Part shown: positions 24,301-38,484 of the stretch, piece after piece | How the letters are laid out: the number at the start of each line of letters is the position of its first letter | Position numbering within the stretch: the stretch's first letter is position 1 | Assembly (NCBI RefSeq): GCF_025144145.1 | Contig: NZ_CP083546.1 | Span: 3,302,501 to 3,366,500 of the forward strand | Reading direction: 5' to 3' | Length of the DNA: 64,000 bases | From: Leisingera sp. M658 | GTDB taxonomy: Bacteria > Pseudomonadota > Alphaproteobacteria > Rhodobacterales > Rhodobacteraceae | The notes under the pieces: generated by a model | The model's input: the letters and a program-made list of their open reading frames with translations, nothing else | Told to the model about the DNA's origin: nothing | Databases searched by the model: none | Position numbers and translations under genes: made by a program

Positions 24301-24334
24301 TCATTAAAATTTTTTAATCGAATTGGGAATCCGA

Positions 24335-25039
24335 ATGCCAGCCCCCCGCGAAAACATGAGTTACAGGGATATCAAGCAGGTCGTTCTGGACCGGATCCAA
24401 AACAAGATCTGGGCGCCGGACAGTCTGCTGCCCAGCGAAACGGACCTGGCTGTTGAATTCTCAAGCACGCGCACCACTGTGAACCGGGCGCTGCGGGAGC
24501 TGGCCGAAGAAGGCTATCTGGAACGCAAACGGAAGGCCGGGACGCGGGTTTTGAATTCACCGGTCCGCAAAGCCCAGTTTTCCATCCCCCTGGTGCGGGA
24601 TGAAATCGCTGAAACCGGCGCCGCCTACCGGTATTCCCTGGTGGAAAGCCGTATCATGCCTGCCCCGGCATGGCTGTCAGCCCGGCTTGATATCCCTCAA
24701 AAGCAGGAGGTTCTGCATATCAGATGCATGCATTATGCCGGCAATGCGCCGTTCCAGTATGAAGTGCGCTGGGTTGTGACAGACAGCATCCCCGACGTTC
24801 TGGAGGCGGATTTCACCCAATCCGGTCCGAATGACTGGCTGGTGCAAAAAGTACCCTTCACAAATCTTGAGCTGAGCTTCATGGCGACCAAGGCCGATCA
24901 GACAGTGTCCGAGTTTCTGGACGCCCCATTGGGGGATCCGTTGTTCACTGCGGAAAGGATTACTTGGCTGCGCACCAAGCCTGTAACGCTGGCAAAGCTG
25001 TTTTTTGCTCCCGGATATAAAATGACGACTCATCTGTAA
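24335..25039 (+). CDS. GntR-family regulator of the HutC/UTRA subgroup
   Basis: The 234-residue protein has an N-terminal winged helix (ILPSETDLAVEF-like stretch LLPSETDLAVEFSSTRTTVN, then LRELAEEGYLERKRKAGTRV). The UTRA ligand domain ends EFLDAPLGDPLFTAERITWL, TLAKLFFAPGYKM. The last segment is typical of HutC, the urocanate-responsive repressor of histidine use, but no hut genes are here. It lies upstream of, and on the same strand as, the hydroxyquinol operon and may respond to an aromatic or acid inducer instead. ATG at 24335 is chosen; a second ATG at 24356 is possible. Confidence 0.83.
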   Translation: MPAPRENMSYRDIKQVVLDRIQNKIWAPDSLLPSETDLAVEFSSTRTTVNRALRELAEEGYLERKRKAGTRVLNSPVRKAQFSIPLVRDEIAETGAAYRYSLVESRIMPAPAWLSARLDIPQKQEVLHIRCMHYAGNAPFQYEVRWVVTDSIPDVLEADFTQSGPNDWLVQKVPFTNLELSFMATKADQTVSEFLDAPLGDPLFTAERITWLRTKPVTLAKLFFAPGYKMTTHL

Positions 25040-25121: not shown

Positions 25122-26072
25122 TTAAGGCCGCCAGACAGCATCCTGGCCCACACGGGTGATACTGGCGGACAGGGTCTTGAACTCGCTCCGGATATAGCCC
25201 GCGAACCGCTTGACGGAGGGCCGCATTGGCTGGGTTTCATAGCGCAAAATGCCCAAGTGCCGGTCCGGATCGCCAATGCGGACCGGCAAGGCGCTGATTG
25301 ATTTCTGACGCCGCATCATGAACACCACGGAAAACGGCAGCACCGTCAGAGCGTCGGACCCCGTAAGGATACTGACCACCGCGCTGAGGGAGCCGCCGGA
25401 GAAACTGACCTTGAAATCCTTCACTCCGATCCCTTCAAGCACCGCGCGCAGGTCGTGGTATAGCGGGCTGTCCGCCGGTGGCGCAATCCAGGAATACTGC
25501 GCAATTTCCGGCAGCTTCACTGCCCCGCGCCGGACCAGCGGATGCCCTGCCCGGCAGGCGATGACGTTGCGCCCGGGCAGGATCTGGTCAAAGGAAAACC
25601 CCTCAGGAGTTGACGCCTGCCGCATTGGCAGAATGGCCAGGTCAAGGGTTCCCTCCTTCAGCTTCGGCATCAGATCTCCAGGGTAGCCATAACTCTGGTC
25701 GATGCGCACGTCCGGGTAGCCCATCTGAAACTCGGCGATCATCGGCGAGATCACCCCGTCGAGGAACACCGGCGTGCCGGCAACCCGCACTGCGCCGCTT
25801 TTGCCGCGCTGGAACTGTTCCAGAACAGCACCGCTGCGGCGCACTGCCAGAAAGACCTTCCTGCCCTCCTCTGCCAGGGCGAGGCCCAATTCGGTCGGCT
25901 GCAGCGGGCGCCTGCCCGGCTCAAACAAGGGGGCGCCGACGCGCTCCTCCAGCATCGCAAGCGATCGCGACAGGCTTGGTTGCGACTTGCCAAGCAGCTC
26001 TGCCCCTTCGGTCAACCCGCCGCGATCAACGATGGCAAACAGCATTTCAAGGTGACGGGGATCCAGCTTCAT
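25122..26072 (-). CDS. LysR-family regulator, probable controller of the hydroxyquinol operon
   Basis: The 316-residue protein has an N-terminal helix-turn-helix (HLEMLFAIVDRGGLTEGAEL, LGKSQPSLSRSLAMLEERVG) and a two-lobed effector domain starting GKSGAVRVAGTPVFLDGVIS. It is divergent from the maleylacetate reductase gene with 91 bp between the starts, the classic layout of a LysR activator and its target. A direct repeat AAGTTCGA lies in that gap. Effector unknown; an aromatic intermediate is likely by position. Confidence 0.88.
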   Translation of the reverse strand: MKLDPRHLEMLFAIVDRGGLTEGAELLGKSQPSLSRSLAMLEERVGAPLFEPGRRPLQPTELGLALAEEGRKVFLAVRRSGAVLEQFQRGKSGAVRVAGTPVFLDGVISPMIAEFQMGYPDVRIDQSYGYPGDLMPKLKEGTLDLAILPMRQASTPEGFSFDQILPGRNVIACRAGHPLVRRGAVKLPEIAQYSWIAPPADSPLYHDLRAVLEGIGVKDFKVSFSGGSLSAVVSILTGSDALTVLPFSVVFMMRRQKSISALPVRIGDPDRHLGILRYETQPMRPSVKRFAGYIRSEFKTLSASITRVGQDAVWRP

Positions 26073-26097
26073 ACCCAAAGGTTATATTAATGCCTCC

Positions 26098-26163: not shown

Positions 26164-27225
26164 ATGTTCGACACTGCAAAATACGGATCAGATCAGACCG
26201 TCATCTTTGAGGCGGGGCTGCACCGCACCCTGGACCGTCATGTTTCTGCGCTGGGTGCCAACCGCGTTCTGGTGCTGACCACACCGCATCAATCGGATCT
26301 CGGGCTGGAGCTGGCGGCGCAGCTGGGCGCCAAGACGGCAGGTGTGTTCTGCCGCGCCGCAATGCATACGCCGGTCGAGGTGACCGAGGAAGCCCTGGCC
26401 CATCTGCAGGATGTCGGCGCGGACACTGTGCTGGCGGCCGGCGGCGGTTCGACCATCGGGCTTGGCAAGGCGCTGGCCCTGCGCAGCGGCGTCACCCAGA
26501 TTGCCCTGCCCACGACCTATGCCGGCAGCGAATGCACGCCGATCCTCGGCCAGACTGAAAACGGGGTGAAAACCACGGTGAATGACAGCAATCTGCGCCC
26601 GGCCACCGTGCTTTATGACCCGGAACTGGTGGCAACCCTTCCGGTACCGATGACCGTGACAAGCACGCTCAATGCCATGGCCCATGCCGTCGAGGCGCTC
26701 TATGCGCAGGACCGCAATCCACAGTCGACTGAACTGGCGCTGACTGGGCTGCGTATCTTTGCCGACGCCCTGCCGCGGGTGCTGGAGGATCCGGCCGGGC
26801 TGCAAGCGCGCCTTGCCACGCAGCAGGCTGCCTGGGCCTGCGGCACGGTACTGGGCCAGGTGGGCATGGCGCTGCATCACAAGCTTTGCCACACACTTGG
26901 CGGCAGCTTCGGTCTGCCGCACGCCGAAACCCATGCCATCGTGCTGCCCCACGCCGCCGCCTATAACGCTGCTGCCGTGCCCGGCCTGCTGGCCCCCGTT
27001 GGCGAAATCTTTGGAAATGCCGATCCGGCGGCCGCTCTTTGGCAATTCGCCAAGGATCACGGCGCCCCGATGGCGCTGCGCGATCTGGGGCTGGCGGAGG
27101 CGGATCTGGACCGCGCTGCCGCTCTTGCAGTGCAGAACCCCTATTGGAACCCAAAAGAAATCACCCGGTCCGGCATTCGGGACCTGCTGGCGCGCGCCTG
27201 GGGAGGAGACGCGCCGGGTAACTGA
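26164..27225 (+). CDS. Maleylacetate reductase
   Basis: The 353-residue protein belongs to the iron-type alcohol dehydrogenases, maleylacetate reductase branch. The Rossmann-side GGGSTIGLGKALAL lies near residue 95, followed by PTTYAGSECTPILGQTENGVK (MAR-type substrate loop). Metal-site histidines are in MAHAVEALYA, LHHKLCHTLGGSFGLPHAETHAIVLPH. It reduces maleylacetate to 3-oxoadipate with NAD(P)H. It is the first gene of the operon; ATG 26164 is used rather than the upstream TTG. The last step of ring cleavage feeds this enzyme (dioxygenase gene seven places downstream). Confidence 0.9.
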   Translation: MFDTAKYGSDQTVIFEAGLHRTLDRHVSALGANRVLVLTTPHQSDLGLELAAQLGAKTAGVFCRAAMHTPVEVTEEALAHLQDVGADTVLAAGGGSTIGLGKALALRSGVTQIALPTTYAGSECTPILGQTENGVKTTVNDSNLRPATVLYDPELVATLPVPMTVTSTLNAMAHAVEALYAQDRNPQSTELALTGLRIFADALPRVLEDPAGLQARLATQQAAWACGTVLGQVGMALHHKLCHTLGGSFGLPHAETHAIVLPHAAAYNAAAVPGLLAPVGEIFGNADPAAALWQFAKDHGAPMALRDLGLAEADLDRAAALAVQNPYWNPKEITRSGIRDLLARAWGGDAPGN

Positions 27226-27255
27226 ACCATGAGCTGTCATCAGGGAGGAGACCCC

Positions 27256-28527
27256 ATGATCAACCGCCGAACATTGCTGAAAACAGGCACCGCTGCCGGG
27301 CTGCTGAGCACAAGCGGACTCGCCGCGCCCGCCTTGGCACGGGGCGCAAAAATCAAGCTGGGCTACATCAGTCCGCAATCCGGCCCGCTCGCGGCCTTTT
27401 CCGAGGCGGACCGGTTCATCCTGGACGGCTTTGCTGCAACCGACGCGGGCCGGAATTTTGAGGTCATCGTCAAAGACAGCCAATCGAACCCGAACCGTGC
27501 GGCGGATGTGGCGCGCGAGCTGATCGTGAATGACGGCATCGACCTGATGCTTGTCGCCTCTACGCCGGAAACAACCAACCCGGTTGCCACAACCTGCGAG
27601 GCTGAGGAAATCCCCTGCATCTCCACCGTTGCCCCCTGGCAGCCGTGGTTCGCCGGGCAGCAGGGCAATTCCGGCGATCCGGGGTCGTGGGAGCGGTTTC
27701 ACTATGCCTATCACTTCTTCTGGGGGCTGGAGGACATCATCGCGGTCTTCAATGCCATGTGGAGCCAGCTGGACACCAACAAATCCGTCGGCGCGCTGTA
27801 CCCCAATGATGGCGATGGCAATGCCTGGGGCGACCCGGTGCTGGGCTTCCCGCCGGCACTGGAGCAAAGCGGCTACAGGCTGACCGACCCTGGGCGCTAC
27901 CAGAACCTGACGGATGATTTCTCTGCCCAGATCAACGCCTTCAAACAGGCCGAAGCGGAGATCGTGACAGGCGTGCCGGTCCCGCCTGATTTCACCACAT
28001 TCTGGACCCAGGCCAAACAGCAGGGCTTTGCGCCCAAGGCTGCCACCATCGGCAAGGCGGTTCTGTTTCCGCAGGCTGTCGAATCCCTGGGGGATGCAGG
28101 CCACAACCTCAGCTCTGAAGTCTGGTGGTCCCCGAACCATCCGTTCAGCTCCTCACTGACGGGCCAGTCCGCAGCCGGTCTGGCCCACGGCTTCACCGCC
28201 GCAACCGGGCGGCAGTGGACCCAGCCCATCGGCTTTGTCCATGCGCTGTTCGAGATGGCCGCTGATGTGATGGCCCGCGTGGATGATGCCGGTGATGCGG
28301 ATACCGTGTCCGAAGCAATCGCCGCCACCGAGCTTGCCTCCATCGTCGGGCGCATCGCCTTTGACGGCGCAGGCCTGCCGCCTTTTGCACAGGCAAACGT
28401 GGCCAAGACACCGCTGGTGGGCGGTCAATGGCGGCTGACGGAAAGCGGCGGCTATGACCTTGTGATCGTTGACAGTTCCACCGCACCCGAGGTGCCGGCG
28501 GGCGGTGTGATGGAACCCATTTCATGA
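27256..28527 (+). CDS. Branched-chain-amino-acid-type ABC substrate-binding protein (aromatic uptake inferred)
   Basis: The 423-residue protein has a Tat-like signal (MINRRTLLKTGTAAGLLSTS, cleavage about ALA-RG) and the type I periplasmic-binding fold: IKLGYISPQSGPLAAFSEAD, VARELIVNDGIDLMLVASTP, then VPVPPDFTTFWTQAKQQGF. A GGGAGGAG precedes the ATG. Liv-type binding proteins of this sort often carry aromatic acids in Rhodobacteraceae and Rhodopseudomonas. It sits with matching LivGFHM genes. The ligand is likely a phenolic compound that enters the hydroxyquinol route, but this is inferred from context. Confidence 0.85.
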   Translation: MINRRTLLKTGTAAGLLSTSGLAAPALARGAKIKLGYISPQSGPLAAFSEADRFILDGFAATDAGRNFEVIVKDSQSNPNRAADVARELIVNDGIDLMLVASTPETTNPVATTCEAEEIPCISTVAPWQPWFAGQQGNSGDPGSWERFHYAYHFFWGLEDIIAVFNAMWSQLDTNKSVGALYPNDGDGNAWGDPVLGFPPALEQSGYRLTDPGRYQNLTDDFSAQINAFKQAEAEIVTGVPVPPDFTTFWTQAKQQGFAPKAATIGKAVLFPQAVESLGDAGHNLSSEVWWSPNHPFSSSLTGQSAAGLAHGFTAATGRQWTQPIGFVHALFEMAADVMARVDDAGDADTVSEAIAATELASIVGRIAFDGAGLPPFAQANVAKTPLVGGQWRLTESGGYDLVIVDSSTAPEVPAGGVMEPIS

Positions 28528-28585
28528 TGCTGAAAGGAACCCGGTTTTGCCCCATCGCTGCGATGGGATGGCCGGAGCCGCTGAC

Positions 28586-29305
28586 ATGACCCTTCTCTCA
28601 TTGCAGAACGTATCGAAAAGCTTTGGCCAGCTGAAAGTGGCTGATGACGTCACCTTGAAGGTTCCGGCCGGCCAGGCACTTGGCATCATCGGACCAAATG
28701 GCGCGGGGAAATCAACGCTTTTCAACCTCATCACCGGCAATCTGCGCAGCGACGCAGGATCCATCCGCTTTGACGGGCGCGACGTGACGGCGGCCCCCGC
28801 CATGCAGCGCTGTTTCGCGGGTGTCGGCCGCTCCTTCCAGGTGCCGCAGCCCTTCGGCAACATGACCGTGTTCGAGAACCTGATGGTGGCCGCCACCCAT
28901 GGCCGCAAGGCCTCCGAACGGGATGTGCAGGCCGATTGCGCCCGCATTCTAAGCCAATGCGGGCTGTTGCAGGCGGCCAACCAACCGGCGGGCGGGCTTG
29001 CGCTACTGCAGCGCAAGCGGCTGGAAATGGCGCGTGCGCTGGCAACGGACCCCAAGCTGCTTTTGCTGGACGAAATCGCCGGCGGGTTGACCGAGGGCGA
29101 ATGCCTGTCCCTCATCGATACCATCCGCAGCATCCATGCCCGCGGCGTTACCATTATCTGGATCGAACATGTTCTGCATGCGCTCACCTCGGTGGTTGAG
29201 CGACTCCTGGTGCTGAATTTCGGCAAGGTGATCGGCCTTGGCACGCCCGATGACATCATGAACCGGGCCGAGGTCCGCGACATCTATCTGGGAGCCGGTG
29301 TCTGA
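28586..29305 (+). CDS. ABC transporter ATPase, LivG type
   Basis: The 239-residue protein has Walker A IIGPNGAGKSTLFNLITGNL near residue 36, Q-loop GVGRSFQVPQPFGNMTVFEN, Walker B LLLDEIAGGLTEGE and switch IWIEHV. The signature segment reads GGLALLQRKRLEMARALA, so the usual LSYG/LPYGDQ is degenerate, although the LivG-type R-x-L-E-x-A-R-A-L is intact. The start at 28586 (MTLLSLQNVSKSFGQ) is preferred; ATG 28568 is an alternative. It pairs with the LivF-type ATPase that follows. Confidence 0.87.
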   Translation: MTLLSLQNVSKSFGQLKVADDVTLKVPAGQALGIIGPNGAGKSTLFNLITGNLRSDAGSIRFDGRDVTAAPAMQRCFAGVGRSFQVPQPFGNMTVFENLMVAATHGRKASERDVQADCARILSQCGLLQAANQPAGGLALLQRKRLEMARALATDPKLLLLDEIAGGLTEGECLSLIDTIRSIHARGVTIIWIEHVLHALTSVVERLLVLNFGKVIGLGTPDDIMNRAEVRDIYLGAGV

Positions 29306-30012
29306 TGCCCATTTTGAAAACACGCGGCCTTACCGCCCGTTACGGTGACTTTCAGGCGCTGTTCGGCGTCGACTTGCGGCTGGACGAAGGGGAAACCCTT
29401 GCCATCATCGGCGCCAATGGCGCGGGAAAAACAACCCTGATGCGGGCGCTGGCAGGTGTACTGCCATCGGCCCCCGGCATGGTGCATCTGGCGGGCCGGC
29501 CCGTAGGGGGCCTGAGTGCGGATCAGATCATGCCGCTGGGCCTTGCGATGGTGCCGGAGGGGCGCAAACTGTTCCCGTCTCTCTCGGTCGAGGAGAACCT
29601 TCTGATCGGCACCTACGGGCGCAAGGTCCGAGGGTACTGGAGCCTGGAAGCGATCTACGACTTGTTCCCGATCCTTGCAGAACGGCGGCACCATCCGGGC
29701 ACTGCGCTTTCGGGCGGGCAGCAGCAGATGGTGGCCATCGGCCGCGCGCTGATGTCGAACCCCAAGGTCCTGTTGTGTGATGAAATCAGCCTTGGCCTGG
29801 CGCCTGTAGTGATCCGGGACATCTATGCCGCCGTGCCGAAAATCCAGGCCAGCGGCGCCAGCCTGATCGTGGTGGAACAGGATATCGGCCAGGCGATGAA
29901 AGCCGCCGACCGGGTCTGCTGCATGATGGAGGGCCGCATCACCCTTGAAGGGCGTCCCGAAGATCTGCGCCGCGAGGATATTCACGCAGCCTATTTCGGA
30001 GCCGCCGCATGA
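29305..30012 (+). CDS. ABC transporter ATPase, LivF type
   Basis: The 235-residue protein shows Walker A IIGANGAGKTTLMRALAGVL, Q-loop MVPEGRKLFPSLSVEENLLI, signature LSGGQQQMVAIGRALMSNPK, Walker B VLLCDEISLGLAP and switch VVEQD. These are standard LivF motifs with intact catalytic residues. The ATG overlaps the previous stop (TGATG), so it is translationally coupled. Confidence 0.9.
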   Translation: MPILKTRGLTARYGDFQALFGVDLRLDEGETLAIIGANGAGKTTLMRALAGVLPSAPGMVHLAGRPVGGLSADQIMPLGLAMVPEGRKLFPSLSVEENLLIGTYGRKVRGYWSLEAIYDLFPILAERRHHPGTALSGGQQQMVAIGRALMSNPKVLLCDEISLGLAPVVIRDIYAAVPKIQASGASLIVVEQDIGQAMKAADRVCCMMEGRITLEGRPEDLRREDIHAAYFGAAA

Positions 30013-30872
30013 TCTGGATCGACACGATACTGCAGGGCATCCTGCTTGGCGGGCTTTACGCGCTGTTTGCCGCCGGTCTCAGCCTCGTTTTCGGGATTAT
30101 GCGGCTGGTGAATCTGGCCCATGGCGACCTGATTGTATGCGCGGCCTACCTGATCCTTGTCCTGGTAACGCTTCTGGGATTGCCGCCGTTTGCGGCGGCG
30201 CTGCTGGCCGCGCCGGTGATGTTCGCTGCCGGCTGGCTGCTGCAATTGCACCTGCTGAACCGCACGCTGGGGACGGATATCCTGCCGCCGCTGCTGGTGA
30301 CGTTCGGCCTGTCGATCGCGCTGCAGAATGCCCTGCTTGAGGGTTTCAGCGCTGACAGCCAGCGCCTGCCGGCCGGTGCGATCGCCACCGCCTCAATCAA
30401 GCTGGGCGATCTCAGCCTCGGGCTGCTGCCGCTTCTGACCTTTGCCTCCGCCGTCCTTGTGATCCTGGGGCTGAACCAGCTGTTTTACCGCACCGGGCTG
30501 GGCCGTGCCTTCCGTGCCACCTCGGATGATGCGGTCACGGCGAGCCTGATGGGCATCCGCCCCGGGCGCATTTTTGCCACGGCTACGGCAATTGCCATGC
30601 TGGTGGTGACGCTGGCCGCGCTCTACCTTGGGATGCGGGCGAATTTTGATCCGGCAATCGGGCCTGCCCGTCTGATTTATGCCTTTGAGGCTGTGATCAT
30701 CGGCGGCCTTGGCAGCCTGTGGGGCACGCTGGCGGGCGGTATCATCATCGGCGTCGCACAGACGCTGGGCGCCGCTGTGAACCCCGAATGGCAAATTCTG
30801 GCCGGGCACCTGGCCTTCCTGCTCGTGCTGCTGGTGAAGCCGCGCGGACTGTTTCCAAGGGCGGTGGACTGA
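30009..30872 (+). CDS. ABC transporter permease, LivH type
   Basis: The 287-residue protein has about eight membrane helices. LivH landmarks are GILLGGLYALFAAGLSLVFG, IMRLVNLAHGDLIV, the coupling loop LGRAFRATSDDAVTASLMGI, and the C-terminal VIIGGLGSLWGTLAGGIIIG. It overlaps LivF by 4 bp and LivM by 1 bp. Confidence 0.9.
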   Translation: MIWIDTILQGILLGGLYALFAAGLSLVFGIMRLVNLAHGDLIVCAAYLILVLVTLLGLPPFAAALLAAPVMFAAGWLLQLHLLNRTLGTDILPPLLVTFGLSIALQNALLEGFSADSQRLPAGAIATASIKLGDLSLGLLPLLTFASAVLVILGLNQLFYRTGLGRAFRATSDDAVTASLMGIRPGRIFATATAIAMLVVTLAALYLGMRANFDPAIGPARLIYAFEAVIIGGLGSLWGTLAGGIIIGVAQTLGAAVNPEWQILAGHLAFLLVLLVKPRGLFPRAVD

Positions 30873-31972
30873 TGGCTGATCTTACACATTCTCCGGTACA
30901 ATCTGCGGCACTTGCTGCGGCGGCACCGTTCCGCGTGACGACCCGCACAAAGGCGTCCAATCTGTTCGGCCTGCTGGCCTGCGGCGCGGTCCTTCTGTTG
31001 GCGGTTTTGCCCTTCTTTGCCGGGCGCGGGCTGATCCAGGATCTGTTTTTCATCCTGACCATGCTGGTGCTGGCACAGCTTTGGAACCTGCTTGCAGGCT
31101 ACGGCGGTCTGGTCAGCATCGGCCAGCAGGCCTTTGTCGGCGCCGGCGCCTATGCGATGTTCGGCGGCGTCATTATCGCAGGCATCGATCCGATTGCTGC
31201 AATCCTGCTGGGCGGGCTGGCGGCGGCGGTCCTTGCAGTGCCGATGGGTTATTTCGCCTTCCGCCTTGCCGGCGCCTATTTCGCCATTGGTACCTGGGTC
31301 ATGGCCGAAGTCGCGCGGCTGCTCCTTGCGCAGGTTAAAACACTTGGCGGCGGCACCGGCACCTCCCTGCCCCGCACCGCCACCCGCGGGATGTGGGCGA
31401 CCGACTGGATCAAATCCGCACTGGATGTCAAAACCGCCGCCGCGCGCGATATCCTGACCTATTGGCTGGCACTGCTGCTGGCGGTAGTGGTGATCGCAGC
31501 GATCTACGCGCTTTTGCGCTCGCGGCGCGGGCTGGCATTGTCGGCTGTGCGCGACAACCCGGAAGCCGCGAAATCCGTCGGCGTCGATGCTGGCCGGATC
31601 AAATGGCTGGTGTTCCTGGCGGCCAGCCTTGGCACCGGGCTGGCTGGGGCGCTTATCTATGTGCAGAAAACCCGCATCAGCCCCGATGCCGCCTTCAGCG
31701 TCACCGATTGGACGGCTTACGTGATTTTCATCGTAGTGATCGGCGGCATCGGCACCATCGAGGGCCCGATCCTGGGTGTTCTCATCTTCTTCGCATTGCA
31801 ATCGCTGCTGGCCGACTTTGGCAGCTGGTATCTGTTCACGCTTGGTCTTATCGGAATCGCGGTCATGCTCCTGGCGCCGCGCGGCCTATGGGGAGTTTTC
31901 TCCGACCGGACCGGCATTCAGCTTTTTCCCGTTCAGCGGCGTCTGAACGGCGGCACACTCAAGGAGGATTAA
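30872..31972 (+). CDS. ABC transporter permease, LivM type
   Basis: The 366-residue protein starts MADLTHSPVQSAALAAAAPF at the TGATG overlap; the open frame upstream is a shadow of LivH. LivM motifs are LWNLLAGYGGLVSIGQQAFV, the EAA-like RRGLALSAVRDNPEAAKSVG, and VIGGIGTIEGPILGVLIFF. It has about ten helices. With LivH it forms the importer channel. A GGAGG lies between its stop and the hydroxylase gene. Confidence 0.9.
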   Translation: MADLTHSPVQSAALAAAAPFRVTTRTKASNLFGLLACGAVLLLAVLPFFAGRGLIQDLFFILTMLVLAQLWNLLAGYGGLVSIGQQAFVGAGAYAMFGGVIIAGIDPIAAILLGGLAAAVLAVPMGYFAFRLAGAYFAIGTWVMAEVARLLLAQVKTLGGGTGTSLPRTATRGMWATDWIKSALDVKTAAARDILTYWLALLLAVVVIAAIYALLRSRRGLALSAVRDNPEAAKSVGVDAGRIKWLVFLAASLGTGLAGALIYVQKTRISPDAAFSVTDWTAYVIFIVVIGGIGTIEGPILGVLIFFALQSLLADFGSWYLFTLGLIGIAVMLLAPRGLWGVFSDRTGIQLFPVQRRLNGGTLKED

Positions 31973-31974
31973 TC

Positions 31975-33759
31975 ATGGCTGAGATCGAAACCGACGTGCT
32001 TATCATCGGCACCGGGCCTGCGGGCTCTGCAACGGCGGCGCTTCTGTCAAGTTACGGCATCGCGAATATGGCGATCAACCGCTACGGCTGGCTGGCCAGC
32101 ACCCCCCGCGCCCATATCACCAACCAGCGCACGATGGAGGTGCTGCGCGATCTGGGGCAGGATGTCGAAGCGGAGGCCTATATGCATGCGGCCCACCAGG
32201 ACCTGATGGGCGAGAATGTCTTTTGCGAAAGCCTTGCGGGGGAAGAAATCGGCCGTATGAAAAGCTGGGGCAACCATCCCCTGTCAAAGGCCGAGCATCT
32301 GCTGTCCAGCCCGACAATGATGAACGACCTGCCGCAAACCTTCATGGAGCCGATCCTGTTCTCCACCGCCTGCAAACGCGGCACCCAGGCCCGGATGAGC
32401 ACCGAATACCTGAGCCACACGCAGGACGCGGAGGGCGTGACCACCACCTGCCGCGACCGCCTGTCGGGCCGCGAATTCACGGTCCGGTCAAAATACCTTG
32501 TCGGTGCTGATGGCGGCAACTCGCTGGTGGCGCAGAACGAAAACCTTGCGATCGAAGGCAAGATGGGCGTCGGCGGGTCGATGAACATCCTGTTCCGCGC
32601 GGACCTGTCGAAATACGTCGCTCACCGGCCCAGCGTGCTGTACTGGGTCATGCAGCCCGGCGCCGACGTCGGCGGCATCGGCATGGGGCTGGTGCGCATG
32701 GTGCGGCCCTGGAACGAATGGCTGATCGTCTGGGGCTATGACATCAACGAACCCGCACCGGTTGTGGACGAGGCGATGGCAACACAGGTCGCGCGGCAGC
32801 TGGTCGGCGACCCCGAGCTGGAAATCGAGCTGATCTCGGCCAATACATGGACCGTGAACAACGCCTATGCCCCCCGGATGCACAATGGCCGCGTCTTTAT
32901 CATGGGCGATGCGGCACACCGGCACCCGCCCTCGAACGGGCTTGGCTCCAATACCTCGATCCAGGACAGCTTCAACCTCGCTTGGAAACTGGCCGCGGTG
33001 CTGAATGGCCAGGCTGCCCCCGGACTGCTGGACAGCTACACCGCCGAGCGCGCACCGGTTGCCAAGCAGATCGTGACCCGCGCCAACCAGTCGATCAGCG
33101 ATTTCGGCCCGATCTTTGAAACCCTCGGCATGACCGGCGGCACCAGCCTTGAGGAGATCCGCTCCAGTGTGGCTGCCCGCTGTGAAACCACGCCAGAGGC
33201 GGAAAAACAGCGCGCCGCAATCCGCGAGGCGATTGCCTTCAAGAAGTACGAGTTCGACGCCCATGGGGTGGAAATGAACCAGCGCTACAAATCCGATGCG
33301 GTGGTCACCGACGGGCAGATGGAACCGGCATTCGAACTGGACGCGGAACTGCACTACCAGCCCACCACCTGGCCGGGCGCGCGGCTGCCGCATGTCTGGG
33401 TGTTCGACCCTGAAACCGGAGAAAAGCTTTCGACCCTGGATCTGTGCGGCAAGGGTGCCTTTACCCTGCTGACCGGCATCGGCGGCGAGGCCTGGGAAGA
33501 GGCGGCAGAGGCCGTGGGGGCAGAGTTCGGCCTGCCGCTGACGGTGCGTCTGATCGGGCCGCGGCGCAAATTTGCAGACCATACCGGCGATTGGGCGCGG
33601 GCTTCGGAAATTGCTGATTCCGGCTGTATCCTGGTCCGTCCCGACCACCACGTCTGCTGGCGCGCCGAGGAAATGGCCTCGGATCCCAAGGGCGAACTGC
33701 TCCGGGTGCTTTCCCATATTTTCAGCCGCGGCGCGGCGGCCTCCATGGCAGCGGAGTAA
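31975..33759 (+). CDS. FAD-dependent phenolic hydroxylase (PheA/TfdB type)
   Basis: The 594-residue class A flavoprotein monooxygenase has an N-terminal dinucleotide fold (VLIIGTGPAGSATAALLSSY), the DG motif YLVGADGGNSLVA near residue 180, the GD motif VFIMGDAAHRHPPSNGLGSN near 310, and a C-terminal thioredoxin-like domain (LDLCGKGAFTLLTGIGG). It is closest in layout to 2,4-dichlorophenol 6-monooxygenase and phenol hydroxylase. Its neighbour is a hydroxyquinol dioxygenase, so it likely adds the third hydroxyl to a dihydroxybenzene such as resorcinol, giving hydroxyquinol. The substrate is inferred. AAGGAGG precedes ATG 31975. Confidence 0.87.
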   Translation: MAEIETDVLIIGTGPAGSATAALLSSYGIANMAINRYGWLASTPRAHITNQRTMEVLRDLGQDVEAEAYMHAAHQDLMGENVFCESLAGEEIGRMKSWGNHPLSKAEHLLSSPTMMNDLPQTFMEPILFSTACKRGTQARMSTEYLSHTQDAEGVTTTCRDRLSGREFTVRSKYLVGADGGNSLVAQNENLAIEGKMGVGGSMNILFRADLSKYVAHRPSVLYWVMQPGADVGGIGMGLVRMVRPWNEWLIVWGYDINEPAPVVDEAMATQVARQLVGDPELEIELISANTWTVNNAYAPRMHNGRVFIMGDAAHRHPPSNGLGSNTSIQDSFNLAWKLAAVLNGQAAPGLLDSYTAERAPVAKQIVTRANQSISDFGPIFETLGMTGGTSLEEIRSSVAARCETTPEAEKQRAAIREAIAFKKYEFDAHGVEMNQRYKSDAVVTDGQMEPAFELDAELHYQPTTWPGARLPHVWVFDPETGEKLSTLDLCGKGAFTLLTGIGGEAWEEAAEAVGAEFGLPLTVRLIGPRRKFADHTGDWARASEIADSGCILVRPDHHVCWRAEEMASDPKGELLRVLSHIFSRGAAASMAAE

Positions 33760-33763
33760 CGAT

Positions 33764-34645
33764 ATGTTTGATGAACACGAAAATGGTTACTTCACAGAAG
33801 ATACCAGCGCCGAGGTTGTTGCCGCCCGCAATGCCAAGGCCGAAAACGAGCGGCTGCGCGACTGCGTCAATATCCTGGTGAAACACATCCACGCCGCGAT
33901 TAAGGAAATGGAGCCCAGCCAGGAAGAGTGGTTCAGGACCATCATGTTCCTGACGGAAACCGGCCATACCTGCGATGACTGGCGGCAGGAGTTCATCCTG
34001 CTGTCGGACATCATGGGCGTTTCCATGCTGGTGGACGCGATCAACAACCGCAAACCCACCGGCGCCTCCGAAAGCACGGTGCTTGGCCCCTTCCACGTGG
34101 CCGAGGCACCGGAGCTGCCGATGGGTTCCAATATCTGCCTTGATGGCAAGGGCGAGCCAATGCTGGTCAGGGGCCGGATCCTCGACACCGATGGCAACCC
34201 GGTCGCGGGCGCCAAGATCGACGTCTGGCAGGCCAATGACGAGGGGTTTTACGATGTGCAGCAAAAGGGCATCCAGCCCGATTTCAACCTGCGCGGCGTG
34301 TTTCGTACAGCTGCCGATGGCAGCTACAGCTTTCGCGCCGTAAAGCCGAAATTCTACCCGATCCCGGATGATGGCCCGGTGGGCAAGCTGCTGCGCGACC
34401 TTGGCCGCCACCCGTACCGGCCCGCGCATTTCCACTACATCCTTGAGGCTGATGGGTTTGAAAGCCTGACCACCCACATCTTCGACCCGGATGACCCCTA
34501 CATCAACTCCGACGCGGTCTTTGGCGTGAAGGAAAGCCTGATGGCCAAATTCGACCTGATCGAGGATCCGGCAGCGCTGCAGGAGGCCGGATTCGATGAG
34601 GCCTTCTATCTGGTGGAGCACGACTTTGTTCTGGCAAAGGGCTGA
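33764..34645 (+). CDS. Hydroxyquinol 1,2-dioxygenase (intradiol)
   Basis: The 293-residue protein has the N-terminal helical dimer domain (VNILVKHIHAAIKEMEPSQE, WFRTIMFLTETGHTCDDWRQ) and the intradiol signature LVRGRILDTDGNPVAGAKID followed by VWQANDEGFYD. The iron ligands are the Tyr in GFYD, the Tyr in KFYPIP, and the two His in RPAHFHYI. GASESTVLGPFHVAEAPE with the length fits the hydroxyquinol rather than catechol subgroup. It cleaves hydroxyquinol to maleylacetate, the substrate of the reductase encoded first in the operon. It begins 4 bp after the hydroxylase stop. Confidence 0.92.
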   Translation: MFDEHENGYFTEDTSAEVVAARNAKAENERLRDCVNILVKHIHAAIKEMEPSQEEWFRTIMFLTETGHTCDDWRQEFILLSDIMGVSMLVDAINNRKPTGASESTVLGPFHVAEAPELPMGSNICLDGKGEPMLVRGRILDTDGNPVAGAKIDVWQANDEGFYDVQQKGIQPDFNLRGVFRTAADGSYSFRAVKPKFYPIPDDGPVGKLLRDLGRHPYRPAHFHYILEADGFESLTTHIFDPDDPYINSDAVFGVKESLMAKFDLIEDPAALQEAGFDEAFYLVEHDFVLAKG

Positions 34646-34649
34646 CGGC

Positions 34650-35474
34650 ATGAGCAAACCCTGCATCATCTGCGTCGCGATCACCGGCTCCCTGCCGCGC
34701 AAGGCGCACAACCCGGCAGTGCCGGTCACGGTCGAAGAACAGATCGAGAGCACCCATGCCGCGTTTGAGGCCGGGGCCAGCATCTGCCACGCCCATGTGC
34801 GCAACGAGGACGAGACCCCCTCATCGGATCCGGAGAAGTTCGCGCGTCTCAAGGAAGGGCTGGAAAAGCACTGCCCCGGAATGGTGATCCAGTTCTCCAC
34901 CGGCGGACGCTCGGGCGCGGGCAAGGCCCGGGGCGGCATGCTGCATCTTCGGCCGGACATGGCATCGCTTTCGGTGGGATCGAACAACTTCCCCGCCCGC
35001 GTCTACCAGAATCCGCCGGATCTGGTGGACTGGCTGGCGGCAGAGATGATCACCCACGGTGTGAAACCCGAGATCGAGGCCTTTGACCTCAGCCACATTC
35101 ACCAGGCTGGACGGATGCAGGCGGACGGGCGTTTGAAGGGGCCATTGTACATTCAGTTCGTGATGGGGGTGAAAAACGCCATGCCCGCCGACCGCGACGT
35201 CTTTGACTACTACGTGAAGACCGTAAACCGCCTGTTGCCCGATGCAGAATGGTGCGCTGCGGGGATCGGCCGGGACCAGCTGACCCTGAACGAATGGTGC
35301 GTCGCCAATGGCGGCCACGCGCGGACAGGACTGGAGGACAACATCCGGCTCGGCAAAGACCGGCTCGCTTCGTCCAACGCCGAACTGGTGGCAAGGGTGA
35401 CGGAGATCTGCCACCGGCACGGCCGCCCGGTCGCCACGCCGGCCCAGGCGCGGAAGATTCTCGGCTTGGCCTGA
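34650..35474 (+). CDS. Beta-keto acid cleavage enzyme (BKACE, DUF849)
   Basis: The 274-residue TIM-barrel protein shows the BKACE metal and catalytic residues: the zinc His pair in ICHAHVRNEDETPS, FSTGGRSGAG, and the C-terminal GGHARTGLEDNIRL with the Arg, Glu and Asp of the R-x-G-x-E-D motif. The family converts a beta-keto acid and acetyl-CoA to an acyl-CoA and acetoacetate. It starts 4 bp after the dioxygenase stop, so it is part of the operon. Maleylacetate reductase makes 3-oxoadipate, itself a beta-keto acid, so the likely reaction here gives succinyl-CoA and acetoacetate; this is inference. Confidence 0.85.
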   Translation: MSKPCIICVAITGSLPRKAHNPAVPVTVEEQIESTHAAFEAGASICHAHVRNEDETPSSDPEKFARLKEGLEKHCPGMVIQFSTGGRSGAGKARGGMLHLRPDMASLSVGSNNFPARVYQNPPDLVDWLAAEMITHGVKPEIEAFDLSHIHQAGRMQADGRLKGPLYIQFVMGVKNAMPADRDVFDYYVKTVNRLLPDAEWCAAGIGRDQLTLNEWCVANGGHARTGLEDNIRLGKDRLASSNAELVARVTEICHRHGRPVATPAQARKILGLA

Positions 35475-35604: not shown

Positions 35605-38484
35605 TCAGGCGGCGTGCATGTGTTGCAGGTTGCGCCGCTTAAGCGCCTGGCGGGCCAAGTCGCCGTAAGCCCTGCGGACCAGTCCGCGCCCGTGCTCGCC
35701 AACCAATCCATGAACGGCAGCCAGTTCAGGGAAGAGACCGAACAGTTCCCGCCGGTCTGCAGCGCACAACCCGCGGATGGCTTCGGGACCGGGCCAGAAT
35801 GTCTCAGTTGCGATACCTTCTGCGAAAATCACCTCATGCCGCTCGGTCATGAGGTGCACATAGGTGACCGGATTGGCAGCCCCCGCCTGTTGTGTACAGT
35901 TTTCGTCAACTGCTGCCAGCAGTTTCGCCGAGAGAAAACTTTCGCCAAGCTGCGTGTCTTGTCCAAATGCTTTGGGGCCGGCTAACAGACGGTGCTGGGG
36001 AGACAGCAGCATCGGCCGCTCCGGGGACAGCAAACCGCCCGGGCGAAGGCAATACGGCCTCAGATGCGGGTGCTGCGCCAGCTCTGCCGGGCTCAGCGTG
36101 CGTTTGCCGACCCAGATAACGGGCTGAAACCCATTGTCGGCGGTTTGCAGCATATCGCCCACCCGGATCCGGCCCGCAGGCACCGCGCCGCGTCTGGTGG
36201 CAAGAAGAACATCCGGCGTGAAACAGGGGATGCCTGCAGAAATGAGCTGTGCAGTGGTTGTGATCTGTGACGGGGCCACCCCCTGCAGAACAAGCTTTTC
36301 ACCCCCTGGAAACGTGAGCAGCGCATTGCCGGATCCATCGTCGGTCACCGAGATATCGCTGGTGCGGACGGCCCCGTCGGGTCCGGTGCCGCCGGTCAGA
36401 TCGGAAACATCAAGCTGGTCATTGAAGAAACCGTCGCTGTCATCATCGGCGATGCTGAAGTCGCTGACAGTGTCAATGCCGCCCGCCCCGGTCAGGATCA
36501 GCTCATCATAGCCGGCCCCGGTGGTAATGGAATCGTCACCTGCGCCAAGCGTGACCGTGTCATCGCCCGCGCCTGCGTCAATCGACACCCCGGCGCTGTC
36601 CGCCGAAGCATCCACCACATCACCCTGATCCGTCAGCTTAAGCGCCTCAATCTCGGAAAAGGTGATCGTGTCGGAGCCATCGGTGATCGTACCGGCCTCA
36701 TCGCCGGTGTAGGTGACCGTGACCCCGGTGGTGACTGCCGAGACGTCGACCGTATCGTAGTCATTTCCCGCCTCGCCGCCGGTCAGGGTGTCATTGCCGA
36801 ACCCGTCGGACATCCGGAACGTATCAGCATCAGCCTCGCCGTGCATTTGATCGTCGCCGCTGCCGCCGACCAGCAGATCATCGTCATTGCCGCCGTACAT
36901 AGTATCGGCGCCGTCGCCCCCTTCGAGGGTGTCATTGCCATCGGTTGCGACAATGCTGTCATCACCGGCGCCGCCTACCAGGCTGTCATCACCGGCAGAG
37001 TTCCGCAGCGTGTCATTGCCCGCGCCGCCGATCAGCGTGTCATTGCCAAGACCGGTGGTCAGGCTGTCGTCGCCATCGCCGCCTTCGATGTAGTCGTCGC
37101 CATCGCCACCGGCAATTGTGTCACCGCCGATACCCCCGATCAGGGTATCGTTGCCAAGGCCGCCGTCCATGACATCATCGCCGCCGCCGCCCTCCAGGCT
37201 GTCGTGGCCTGACTCGCCGTACATCAGATCGTTATCGTTGCCGCCAACCAGCAGGTCGTCATCGTTGCCGCCGTACATGGTGTCGGCGCCATCACCCCCG
37301 ATCAGCGTGTCGTTGCCGTCGGTTGCCACGATGCTGTCGTTGCCCACGCCACCGACCAGGCTGTCATCACCGGCGGAGTTCATCAGCGTGTCGTCGCCTT
37401 CGCCGCCGATCAGCGTGTCATTGCCAAGACCGGTGGTCAGGCTGTCGTTGCCTGCACCGCCTTCGATGTAATCGTCGCCTTCGCCGCCAGAGAGCGTGTC
37501 GCCTCCGGCCCCGCCGATCAGGGTATCCGCACCGGTGCCGCCATCCAGAACGTCGTCGCCATCGCCGCCATCCAGGCTGTCATCGCCAGCCTCGCCGAAC
37601 AGGGAGTCATCCCCCCCCTGGCCATAAACCACGTCACTTCCATCACCGGCCAGAACGGTATCGGCCCCTTGCTCGATGCCGGTGGTGACCGGGTCGTCGA
37701 TGGTACTGCCCGAAAGGGTAAATCCCGCCCAGCCCTCGCGTGTTTGCAGCGTGAATTCAATCGACGATTTATCTTCGAAACCAGCAGAAAACCAGGCGTC
37801 CTGATCGGTGTAATCATTGTAATCGGACCCGGTGGCGGTCACAATACTGCCATCAACCGCAGTTCCAAGCGACGAGTCCGAGGACACCCCGAATGAAGTG
37901 AAGCTGTTGCCGTCGATTATGACAGCCTCGGCATCGCCATAGCCGCTGTTGTCATCCACGTCATTGAAGGTCGCCGTGGAATTCAAGTATACCGGCTCAT
38001 TGGTATCCGGATCAAAGAACTCAAGCCGGAAGGTCGCCTGGTCACCCGGATCGTCACCGCCCAGCAGGATTTCCGCGCCGGCTGTGTAGCCGAATTGCAC
38101 CGACATGTCCGGGTTGGATTTCTCCACCAGCACCAGCCTGCCCCAGACTTTGGTTCCGTCCTCCAAAGTGGCAACGTCGCTGAAAACGGCATTATTGCCT
38201 GCAGATCCTAACGAGCCGTCGTGGGAAATGCTCTGGATGTTGTTGATATCCAGCACCAGCGGCGTGGCGTCCAGCCCCTGCTCGAACCCATCGCCCATGT
38301 CGCCATAAACGGTATCGTTGCCCTCGCCCGCGTCAATCAGGTCGCTGCCTTCTTCACCCGCAACGGTATCCTCGCCTGCACCGGCGTCGATCGTGTCGTC
38401 GCCGGTGGTTCCATCCATTTTGTCGCTGGCATCCGTGCCGGTTTTGGAAGCTACAAGGTCATGGACCCAATCTGGTATCGGCAT
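35605..38484 (-). CDS. RTX-repeat protein with C-terminal Hint domain, probably secreted
   Basis: The 959-residue acidic protein contains three parts. Residues 1-75 hold calcium-binding repeats (GDDTIDAGAGEDTV). Residues 80-255 form a beta-rich domain without repeats. Residues 270-560 hold dense GGxGxDxLxGG nonapeptides typical of type I-secreted RTX proteins. The C-terminal 200 residues carry a Hint (hedgehog/intein-like) domain starting CFTPDVLLATRRGAVPAGRI, with LSPQHRLLAG and VTYVHLMTERHEVIFAEGI blocks. Roseobacters have many such proteins, of unknown role. The Cys at the Hint start and the histidines of blocks B and F are present, so self-processing is possible. No type I secretion genes are adjacent. 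Confidence 0.9.
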   Translation of the reverse strand: MPIPDWVHDLVASKTGTDASDKMDGTTGDDTIDAGAGEDTVAGEEGSDLIDAGEGNDTVYGDMGDGFEQGLDATPLVLDINNIQSISHDGSLGSAGNNAVFSDVATLEDGTKVWGRLVLVEKSNPDMSVQFGYTAGAEILLGGDDPGDQATFRLEFFDPDTNEPVYLNSTATFNDVDDNSGYGDAEAVIIDGNSFTSFGVSSDSSLGTAVDGSIVTATGSDYNDYTDQDAWFSAGFEDKSSIEFTLQTREGWAGFTLSGSTIDDPVTTGIEQGADTVLAGDGSDVVYGQGGDDSLFGEAGDDSLDGGDGDDVLDGGTGADTLIGGAGGDTLSGGEGDDYIEGGAGNDSLTTGLGNDTLIGGEGDDTLMNSAGDDSLVGGVGNDSIVATDGNDTLIGGDGADTMYGGNDDDLLVGGNDNDLMYGESGHDSLEGGGGDDVMDGGLGNDTLIGGIGGDTIAGGDGDDYIEGGDGDDSLTTGLGNDTLIGGAGNDTLRNSAGDDSLVGGAGDDSIVATDGNDTLEGGDGADTMYGGNDDDLLVGGSGDDQMHGEADADTFRMSDGFGNDTLTGGEAGNDYDTVDVSAVTTGVTVTYTGDEAGTITDGSDTITFSEIEALKLTDQGDVVDASADSAGVSIDAGAGDDTVTLGAGDDSITTGAGYDELILTGAGGIDTVSDFSIADDDSDGFFNDQLDVSDLTGGTGPDGAVRTSDISVTDDGSGNALLTFPGGEKLVLQGVAPSQITTTAQLISAGIPCFTPDVLLATRRGAVPAGRIRVGDMLQTADNGFQPVIWVGKRTLSPAELAQHPHLRPYCLRPGGLLSPERPMLLSPQHRLLAGPKAFGQDTQLGESFLSAKLLAAVDENCTQQAGAANPVTYVHLMTERHEVIFAEGIATETFWPGPEAIRGLCAADRRELFGLFPELAAVHGLVGEHGRGLVRRAYGDLARQALKRRNLQHMHAA
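36799..37554 (-). repeat. Tandem 378-bp (126-residue) duplication within the RTX gene
   Basis: Two units in register, 37177-37554 (DVLDGGTGADTLIGG...) and 36799-37176 (DVMDGGLGNDTLIGG...), share almost the same residue order, including the irregular strings SLTTGLGNDTLIGG, NSAGDDSLVGG, DSIVATDGNDTL and GADTMYGGNDDDLLVGG. Such irregular strings would not repeat by chance in RTX arrays, so this is a segmental duplication rather than generic repetition. Confidence 0.88.

Follow-up and report, generated by a model that had tools for sequence, protein, structure and literature searches.

In a 64,000-nucleotide window of the Leisingera sp. M658 genome (Rhodobacteraceae; contig NZ_CP083546.1, positions 3,302,501 to 3,366,500), nine plus-strand genes at window positions 26164-35474 form a predicted hydroxyquinol degradation operon whose last gene encodes a BKACE. 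The model we favor is that a Liv-type ABC transporter would import an aromatic compound, which a hydroxylase would turn into hydroxyquinol; a dioxygenase would then open the ring to give maleylacetate, and maleylacetate reductase (MAR) would reduce maleylacetate to 3-oxoadipate. The BKACE would convert 3-oxoadipate and acetyl-CoA to succinyl-CoA and acetoacetate, replacing PcaIJ and PcaF. Activation of acetoacetate would most likely fall to a SCOT-type ScoAB encoded elsewhere in the genome, able to use the fresh succinyl-CoA, after which a thiolase would split acetoacetyl-CoA into two acetyl-CoA. We put the probability of this reading at roughly 80%. What is new here is comparative evidence for a BKACE finishing the hydroxyquinol branch; the function of the enzyme and its use in the pca branch are already known.

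The operon and its terminal enzyme

The original prediction described a nine-gene hydroxyquinol operon ending in a BKACE, with neither pcaIJ nor pcaF inside, and coordinates, protein families and conservation confirm that description. All nine genes are present and open in the order claimed, with successive intergenic spacings of +30, +58, -1, -4, -1, +2, +4, and +4 bp, and pcaIJ and pcaF are not among them. The evidence that the genes form one unit is conservation, most of them staying together in the loci of relatives.

The terminal gene (34650..35474, plus strand) encodes a 274-amino-acid protein, P0001 (PF05853), that scores 492 bits on NF053568, the NCBIfam equivalog model “3-oxoadipate:acetyl-CoA acetyltransferase” (cut-off, 350), versus 259 bits on the next best model, the aminohexanoate model NF052387 (cut-off, 382). 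The expectation that it belongs to the 3-oxoadipate and not the aminohexanoate subgroup was thus borne out, and since P0001 passes the equivalog, the reaction predicted for it is already catalogued for its subgroup. The short name of NF053568, which we read as a mnemonic, presumably points to a Cupriavidus necator protein. None of the three closest solved relatives of P0001 (3fa5, 3chv, and 3no5) carries a function name.

The gene immediately upstream (33764..34645, plus strand) encodes an intradiol dioxygenase whose best five solved chains, 8r2x, 3n9t (PnpC), 8r2v, 8r2w, and 1tmx, are of the (chloro)hydroxyquinol type, 8r2v being named merely as an intradiol dioxygenase. The first gene (26164..27225, plus strand) encodes a protein of the iron-ADH family with 3hl0, 3jzd, and 3w5s as closest solved chains, and it is nearest to the solved maleylacetate reductases 3hl0 and 3w5s. 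By these relationships the operon contains the predicted hydroxyquinol 1,2-dioxygenase and MAR of hydroxyquinol degradation. The hydroxylase (31975..33759, plus strand; PF01494 and PF21274) is a single-component FAD enzyme of the HbpA/TfdB type, nearest to 2-hydroxybiphenyl 3-monooxygenase (4cy6, the best solved match) and 2,4-dichlorophenol 6-monooxygenase; we presume that it forms hydroxyquinol.

CoA-transferases, thiolases, and the fate of acetoacetate

Looking for pcaIJ and pcaF elsewhere in the genome, a check that the original prediction had proposed, gave a divided answer. A profile search found no PcaIJ-type CoA-transferase in this genome: the one full B subunit that passes the cut-off of the PcaJ/ScoB family is SCOT-type, another match lying far under it at 36 bits. 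This B subunit is paired (ScoA/ScoB), has Bacillus subtilis ScoB as its best match, and shares about 51% identity with the PcaJ encoded at the related locus L096, versus 71 to 80% identity to the same PcaJ among the PcaJ-type proteins surveyed. One of ten thiolase matches does exceed the PcaF cut-off (686 bits; cut-off, 597), and because it stands beside paaD (TIGR02159, 183 bits; cut-off, 108), it is probably PaaJ. Thiolases that could split acetoacetyl-CoA are among the other matches.

These genes bear on the alternative that survives best, in which ScoAB, serving as PcaIJ, and the PcaF/PaaJ thiolase process 3-oxoadipate in trans, the BKACE being auxiliary or an overflow enzyme. The genome has both the thiolase over the PcaF cut-off and the ScoA/ScoB pair, and the two closest relatives, L022 and L023 (dioxygenases 88 and 83% identical to that of the window), have the operon without a BKACE inside; the genomes of both, however, hold a BKACE elsewhere, in pcaHG loci. 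A role of ScoAB as PcaIJ is made less likely by the SCOT-type match and the low identity to the L096 PcaJ, and the placement of the thiolase beside paaD also counts against this route, which we regard as improbable.

In the conventional route, PcaIJ and PcaF convert 3-oxoadipate and CoA to succinate and acetyl-CoA, with succinyl-CoA regenerated. A BKACE yields succinyl-CoA and acetoacetate from 3-oxoadipate and acetyl-CoA, SCOT turns these products into acetoacetyl-CoA and succinate, and thiolase gives two acetyl-CoA. The net reaction of BKACE, SCOT, and thiolase is that of PcaIJ and PcaF, and the change lies in general ketone-body enzymes standing in for pathway-specific ones. The idea that the operon saves a CoA-transferase and a thiolase therefore fails if acetoacetate is oxidized, since acetoacetate still needs activation and cleavage, and “self-contained” describes the operon down to acetoacetate and not beyond. 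A designed cycle with the same logic has been reported, the BKACE of which is inhibited by acetoacetate (50% inhibitory concentration [IC50], 1.45 mM; PMC11961710); such inhibition would be a reason for keeping SCOT close.

No single match over the cut-off of TIGR01217, the model for ATP-dependent acetoacetate activation, was found in this genome. Contig C2, however, carries at its two termini four pieces that resemble a single acetoacetyl-CoA synthetase-like gene interrupted there, so this route may also operate. Another BKACE, L002 (G000 C2:166038-166904), adjoins these pieces, a further case of a BKACE neighboring an enzyme that uses acetoacetate. Of the five BKACE genes in the genome, two exceed the NF053568 cut-off. 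The second of these (C1:3178085-3178903; 500 bits) closes a pcaC-pcaH-pcaG-BKACE operon that follows a divergently oriented pcaQ; the remaining three score far under the cut-off (161, 160, and 84 bits).

Hydroxyquinol operons in relatives

We compared 80 loci, the closest of 376 hydroxyquinol dioxygenases found (72 to 88% identity; some loci end early). MAR, the five Liv genes, the hydroxylase, and the dioxygenase occur together on one strand in 60 of them, and at least MAR, hydroxylase, and dioxygenase do so in 71. In the search of other genomes that the original prediction had called for, the same BKACE subgroup does stand next to the hydroxyquinol dioxygenase: in 26 loci, a BKACE match starts 3 to 33 bp beyond the dioxygenase match; two of these (L068 and L084) are contig-end fragments and one (L041) holds a stop. 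These 26 comprise 25 of the 52 Rhodobacterales-named loci and 1 of the 23 Hyphomicrobiales-named loci (L063, Cohaesibacteraceae), the only in-operon BKACE outside the Rhodobacterales-named rows. On this comparative evidence, the same enzyme subgroup very probably finishes the hydroxyquinol branch.

CoA-transferase or thiolase genes lie near the operon in three of the 80 loci. L024 has a pcaIJ pair on the opposite strand, and in L094 a ScoA-type subunit and a thiolase of PcaF type are encoded upstream. In L096, a pcaI-pcaJ-pcaF unit lies 0.9 kb downstream on the same strand, beyond a minus-strand regulator-like gene (IclR-like by eye); this intervening gene rules the unit out as an occupant of the BKACE slot and makes it a neighboring unit. 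In the remaining 51 loci, several of which end early, these searches found no adjacent CoA-transferase or thiolase. Many relatives (among them L029, L030, L037, L044, and L059) also carry a second intradiol dioxygenase, 41 to 52% identical, about 8 to 10 kb upstream of the hydroxyquinol dioxygenase; no counterpart was seen in the window.

Among 398 genomes sampled across the phylum, 37 had a dioxygenase match, 8 of them belonging to the family of the window. A BKACE lies directly behind the dioxygenase in G000, G009, G018, and G021. Nine of the other 33 genomes hold a BKACE (4 of the same family and 5 of others), and none of the 5 other-family genomes has it 20 kb or less from any listed dioxygenase match.

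BKACE versus PcaJ-type transferase across genomes

The whole genomes of the 80 loci were searched for both enzymes, PcaJ-type being defined as at least 71% identity to the PcaJ of L096, so that proteins 55 to 56% identical in G703 (without BKACE) and G740 (with BKACE) stayed outside the count. BKACEs above the NF053568 cut-off occur in 49 genomes (32/40 plus 17/40), in 23 of the 80 only outside the hydroxyquinol operon, and a PcaJ-type transferase occurs in 22. PcaJ-type transferases are present in 6 of 49 genomes with BKACE versus 16 of 31 without (Fisher P = 0.0002, kinship not removed), and when only in-operon BKACEs are considered, in 2 of 26 with versus 20 of 54 without (P = 0.007). Among the 23 Hyphomicrobiales-named genomes the figures are 0/1 with versus 13/22 without (P = 0.43). 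The operon in a genome that has no BKACE over the cut-off anywhere but has a PcaJ-type transferase had been set beforehand as a refuting case; such genomes do occur (e.g., L030, L037, and L059), and we read them as exchangeability of the two systems, not as refutation. Genomes with the hydroxyquinol operon in which neither enzyme was found include L090, L095, and L098 (Mesorhizobium) and L058, L089, and L093 (Hoeflea).

Genomic contexts and phylogeny of the BKACEs

Sampling of 292 genomes across the order found a BKACE over the NF053568 cut-off in 208. For 60 of these loci, at the high-scoring end (the first 63 listed rows, minus the window genome and three with an internal stop, with a single lower row from the same genus as the window added), simple matching placed 30 with pcaHG, 13 with a dioxygenase match, and 17 elsewhere; after inspection, 34 were assigned to pca, 9 to hydroxyquinol, 4 to further intradiol, and 13 to other contexts. 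Four “other” loci were moved to pca for the pobA, pcaD, or pcaB alongside (the pcaB label being the best model, under its cut-off), and four of the 13 dioxygenase-match loci were reassigned, their divergent intradiol dioxygenase being about 40% identical and not of the hydroxyquinol type. Three of the 9 hydroxyquinol loci duplicate loci of the 80-locus set. Another 20 BKACE loci, from genomes whose operon lacks a BKACE, divide into 8 pca, 1 further intradiol, and 11 other contexts.

A scoA gene lies behind an NF053568-type BKACE in 5 of these 80 BKACE loci (L111, L124, L159, L175, and L171, the last behind pcaHG-BKACE). A scoB gene was also seen in L111, L159, and L175, and the contig ends there in L124 and L171. 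The ScoA and ScoB proteins beside BKACE in relatives are 79 to 92% identical to the pair of this genome. A third ring-cleavage setting of the BKACE (L111, L124, L133, L159, and L175) pairs an intradiol dioxygenase of about 40% identity with a divergently oriented set made up of a short gene, a gene that looks hydrolase-like by eye (with no NCBIfam match at 1e-30), and the BKACE; scoA comes next in four of the five, with scoB too in L111, L159, and L175.

When 101 distinct BKACEs (43 pca, 30 hydroxyquinol, 5 further intradiol, and 23 other) were placed in a tree, pca and hydroxyquinol BKACEs did not form two separate clades, and these two labels alone required 7 changes. Support is low, with 15 of 98 branches starred. 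With support of 92 (not starred), the BKACE of the window sits among 11 hydroxyquinol rows. Shuffled labels cluster less than the hydroxyquinol label does, so recruitment of BKACE to hydroxyquinol operons is occasional, not free.

3-Oxoadipate is the keto acid common to the protocatechuate and hydroxyquinol branches, and this is our main argument that it, and not maleylacetate, would be the BKACE substrate. A TfdB/HbpA-type hydroxylase and MAR alongside could put related keto acids at hand, and the enzyme might instead use maleylacetate, or a substituted 3-oxoadipate derived from some unusual substrate. Maleylacetate is made less likely by the presence of the same subgroup in pca operons, where it does not occur, and by the lack of separate clades; with MAR also inside the operon, we think that such a substrate is very improbable.

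Active-site residues and the catalytic tyrosine

His47, His49, Glu229, Arg225, Asp230, and Glu143 are invariant in all 101 BKACEs compared, and we take Arg225, Asp230, and Glu143 to have catalytic roles. His47, His49, and Glu229 are assigned as zinc ligands after PMC12871164. Arg87, Asn176, Tyr188, and Arg233 are likewise invariant in the 101 sequences, and Lys175 is present in 100. All five occur in 3no5 and are absent from CcaKce and from three paralogues of this genome, one of which (L005) aligns poorly at these positions.

Phe145, also found in all 101 subgroup sequences and in 3no5, aligns with Tyr145 of CcaKce and Tyr173 of PdKce (numbering by our count); Phe at this position also occurs in two paralogues of another BKACE subgroup in the same genome. 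PMC12871164 states that every BKACE has the catalytic Tyr and connects the loss of this Tyr in BsfD (Tyr to Phe) with lost cleavage and a different chemistry. The aligned sequences of the P0001 subgroup do not fit that rule, which bears on the proposed BsfD mechanism. Because Phe145 holds across the whole subgroup covered by the equivalog, the Tyr is not taken as defining for this subgroup, and Phe145 lowers the claim to a canonical BKACE mechanism. The same alignment and the BsfD precedent would allow a BsfD-like acetylation followed by decarboxylation to 4,6-dioxoheptanoate, CO2, and CoA, an outcome to which we give hardly any credence, as NCBI names the subgroup 3-oxoadipate:acetyl-CoA acetyltransferase and the linkage to scoAB fits acetoacetate as the product.

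How far the reading extends

Beyond the operon itself, we see slightly better than even odds for a wider proposal: that BKACE, SCOT, and thiolase, common to the protocatechuate branch, the hydroxyquinol branch, and one further intradiol branch, have largely taken the place of the lower 3-oxoadipate pathway in Rhodobacterales, with aromatic carbon entering via the ketone body acetoacetate; that BKACE reached the ends of hydroxyquinol operons more than once; and that Phe145, Arg87, Lys175, and Arg233 mark a subgroup that binds the second carboxylate.

Several observations weigh against the model we favor. The PcaF/PaaJ thiolase of this genome would permit the conventional, improbable route via ScoAB. 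The operon lacks an internal BKACE in 54 of the 80 loci, L022 and L023 included, and in none of the 80 does pcaIJF take the exact position of BKACE. These searches found neither BKACE nor PcaJ-type transferase in 15 of the 80 genomes. Within the 52 Rhodobacterales-named genomes, the difference in PcaJ-type transferases (6/47 with BKACE versus 3/5 without; P = 0.03) rests on 5 genomes, and for in-operon BKACE it is not significant (2/25 versus 7/27; P = 0.14). For 13 of the 60 BKACEs sampled, we saw no aromatic context. On the tree, the hydroxyquinol label changes 10 times, with only 2 changes forced by well supported branches, and the clustering of that label is pronounced (10 changes versus a mean of 26.1 for shuffled labels, with 0 of 500 shuffles as low).

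Transport genes and flanking regions

The five Liv-type genes, all on the plus strand, encode a periplasmic substrate-binding protein (27256..28527; PF13458, 113.6 bits), a LivG-like ATPase (28586..29305; best model LivG, under its cut-off), a LivF-like ATPase (29305..30012; best models UrtE and LivF, under their cut-offs), and LivH-like (30009..30872) and LivM-like (30872..31972) permeases, both under model cut-offs. Divergent from the operon is a minus-strand gene for a LysR-type regulator (25122..26078), for which the best NCBIfam model is PcaQ (TIGR02424) at 105.6 bits, far under the cut-off of 303.8. No T-N11-A dyad with 4 of 6 positions matched was found in the interval between the LysR gene and MAR; in a scan for promoters and terminators, promoter-like matches were at chance level and terminator-like matches below chance.

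A GntR-family gene over the HutC cut-off (24323-25039; 254 versus 220 bits) adjoins the LysR gene and probably belongs to the neighboring gene set. Directly behind the operon, the minus strand encodes a 959-amino-acid protein (35605-38484) that by eye has many Gly/Asp-rich repeats of RTX appearance and a Hint-like end.

Relation to known systems

Hydroxyquinol pathways finished by PcaIJ and PcaF are known beyond L096, the locus with pcaIJF nearby; they use the same hydroxylase, dioxygenase, and MAR, with a CoA-transferase and a thiolase where the window has a BKACE. A thiolase-free 3-oxoadipate route, put forward originally as a novelty, is not one: the function is already an NCBIfam equivalog, of which P0001 passes the cut-off and only the operon context differs, and the route has been published for protocatechuate (PMC8963497, PMC12379598). 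Methylobacterium pca clusters that lack pcaIJF have been reported, nearly all of them containing a DUF849 gene, for which the BKACE route was raised (PMC8963497), and a pca cluster with kce, moved into Methylobacterium extorquens, conferred growth on protocatechuate (PMC12379598). There, as in the window operon, pcaIJ and pcaF give way to a BKACE whose predicted substrate is 3-oxoadipate; those operons, in contrast, serve the protocatechuate branch (pcaHGBL) and not the hydroxyquinol/maleylacetate branch, and the role of kce is deduced in them from the cluster. The CORE cycle (PMC11961710) likewise follows a BKACE with CoA transfer from the acyl-CoA product to acetoacetate and then a thiolase but, unlike the window operon, is a synthetic design with malonate semialdehyde as the keto acid. 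Numbering of BKACE groups conflicts between the texts consulted (beta-ketoadipate in G3 and “negatively charged” in G4 in PMC4922564; G4 in PMC8963497), and no group number is used here. No paper joining BKACE with hydroxyquinol was found in the open-licence PMC literature, by queries of which not all paired the two terms.

With BKACE over the cut-off in most of the sampled genomes of the order, these bacteria may channel much of their aromatic carbon through acetoacetate, and their pathways would look incomplete to anyone searching just for pcaIJ and pcaF. Named, testable genes (BKACE and scoAB) and a set of candidate specificity residues result from this analysis.

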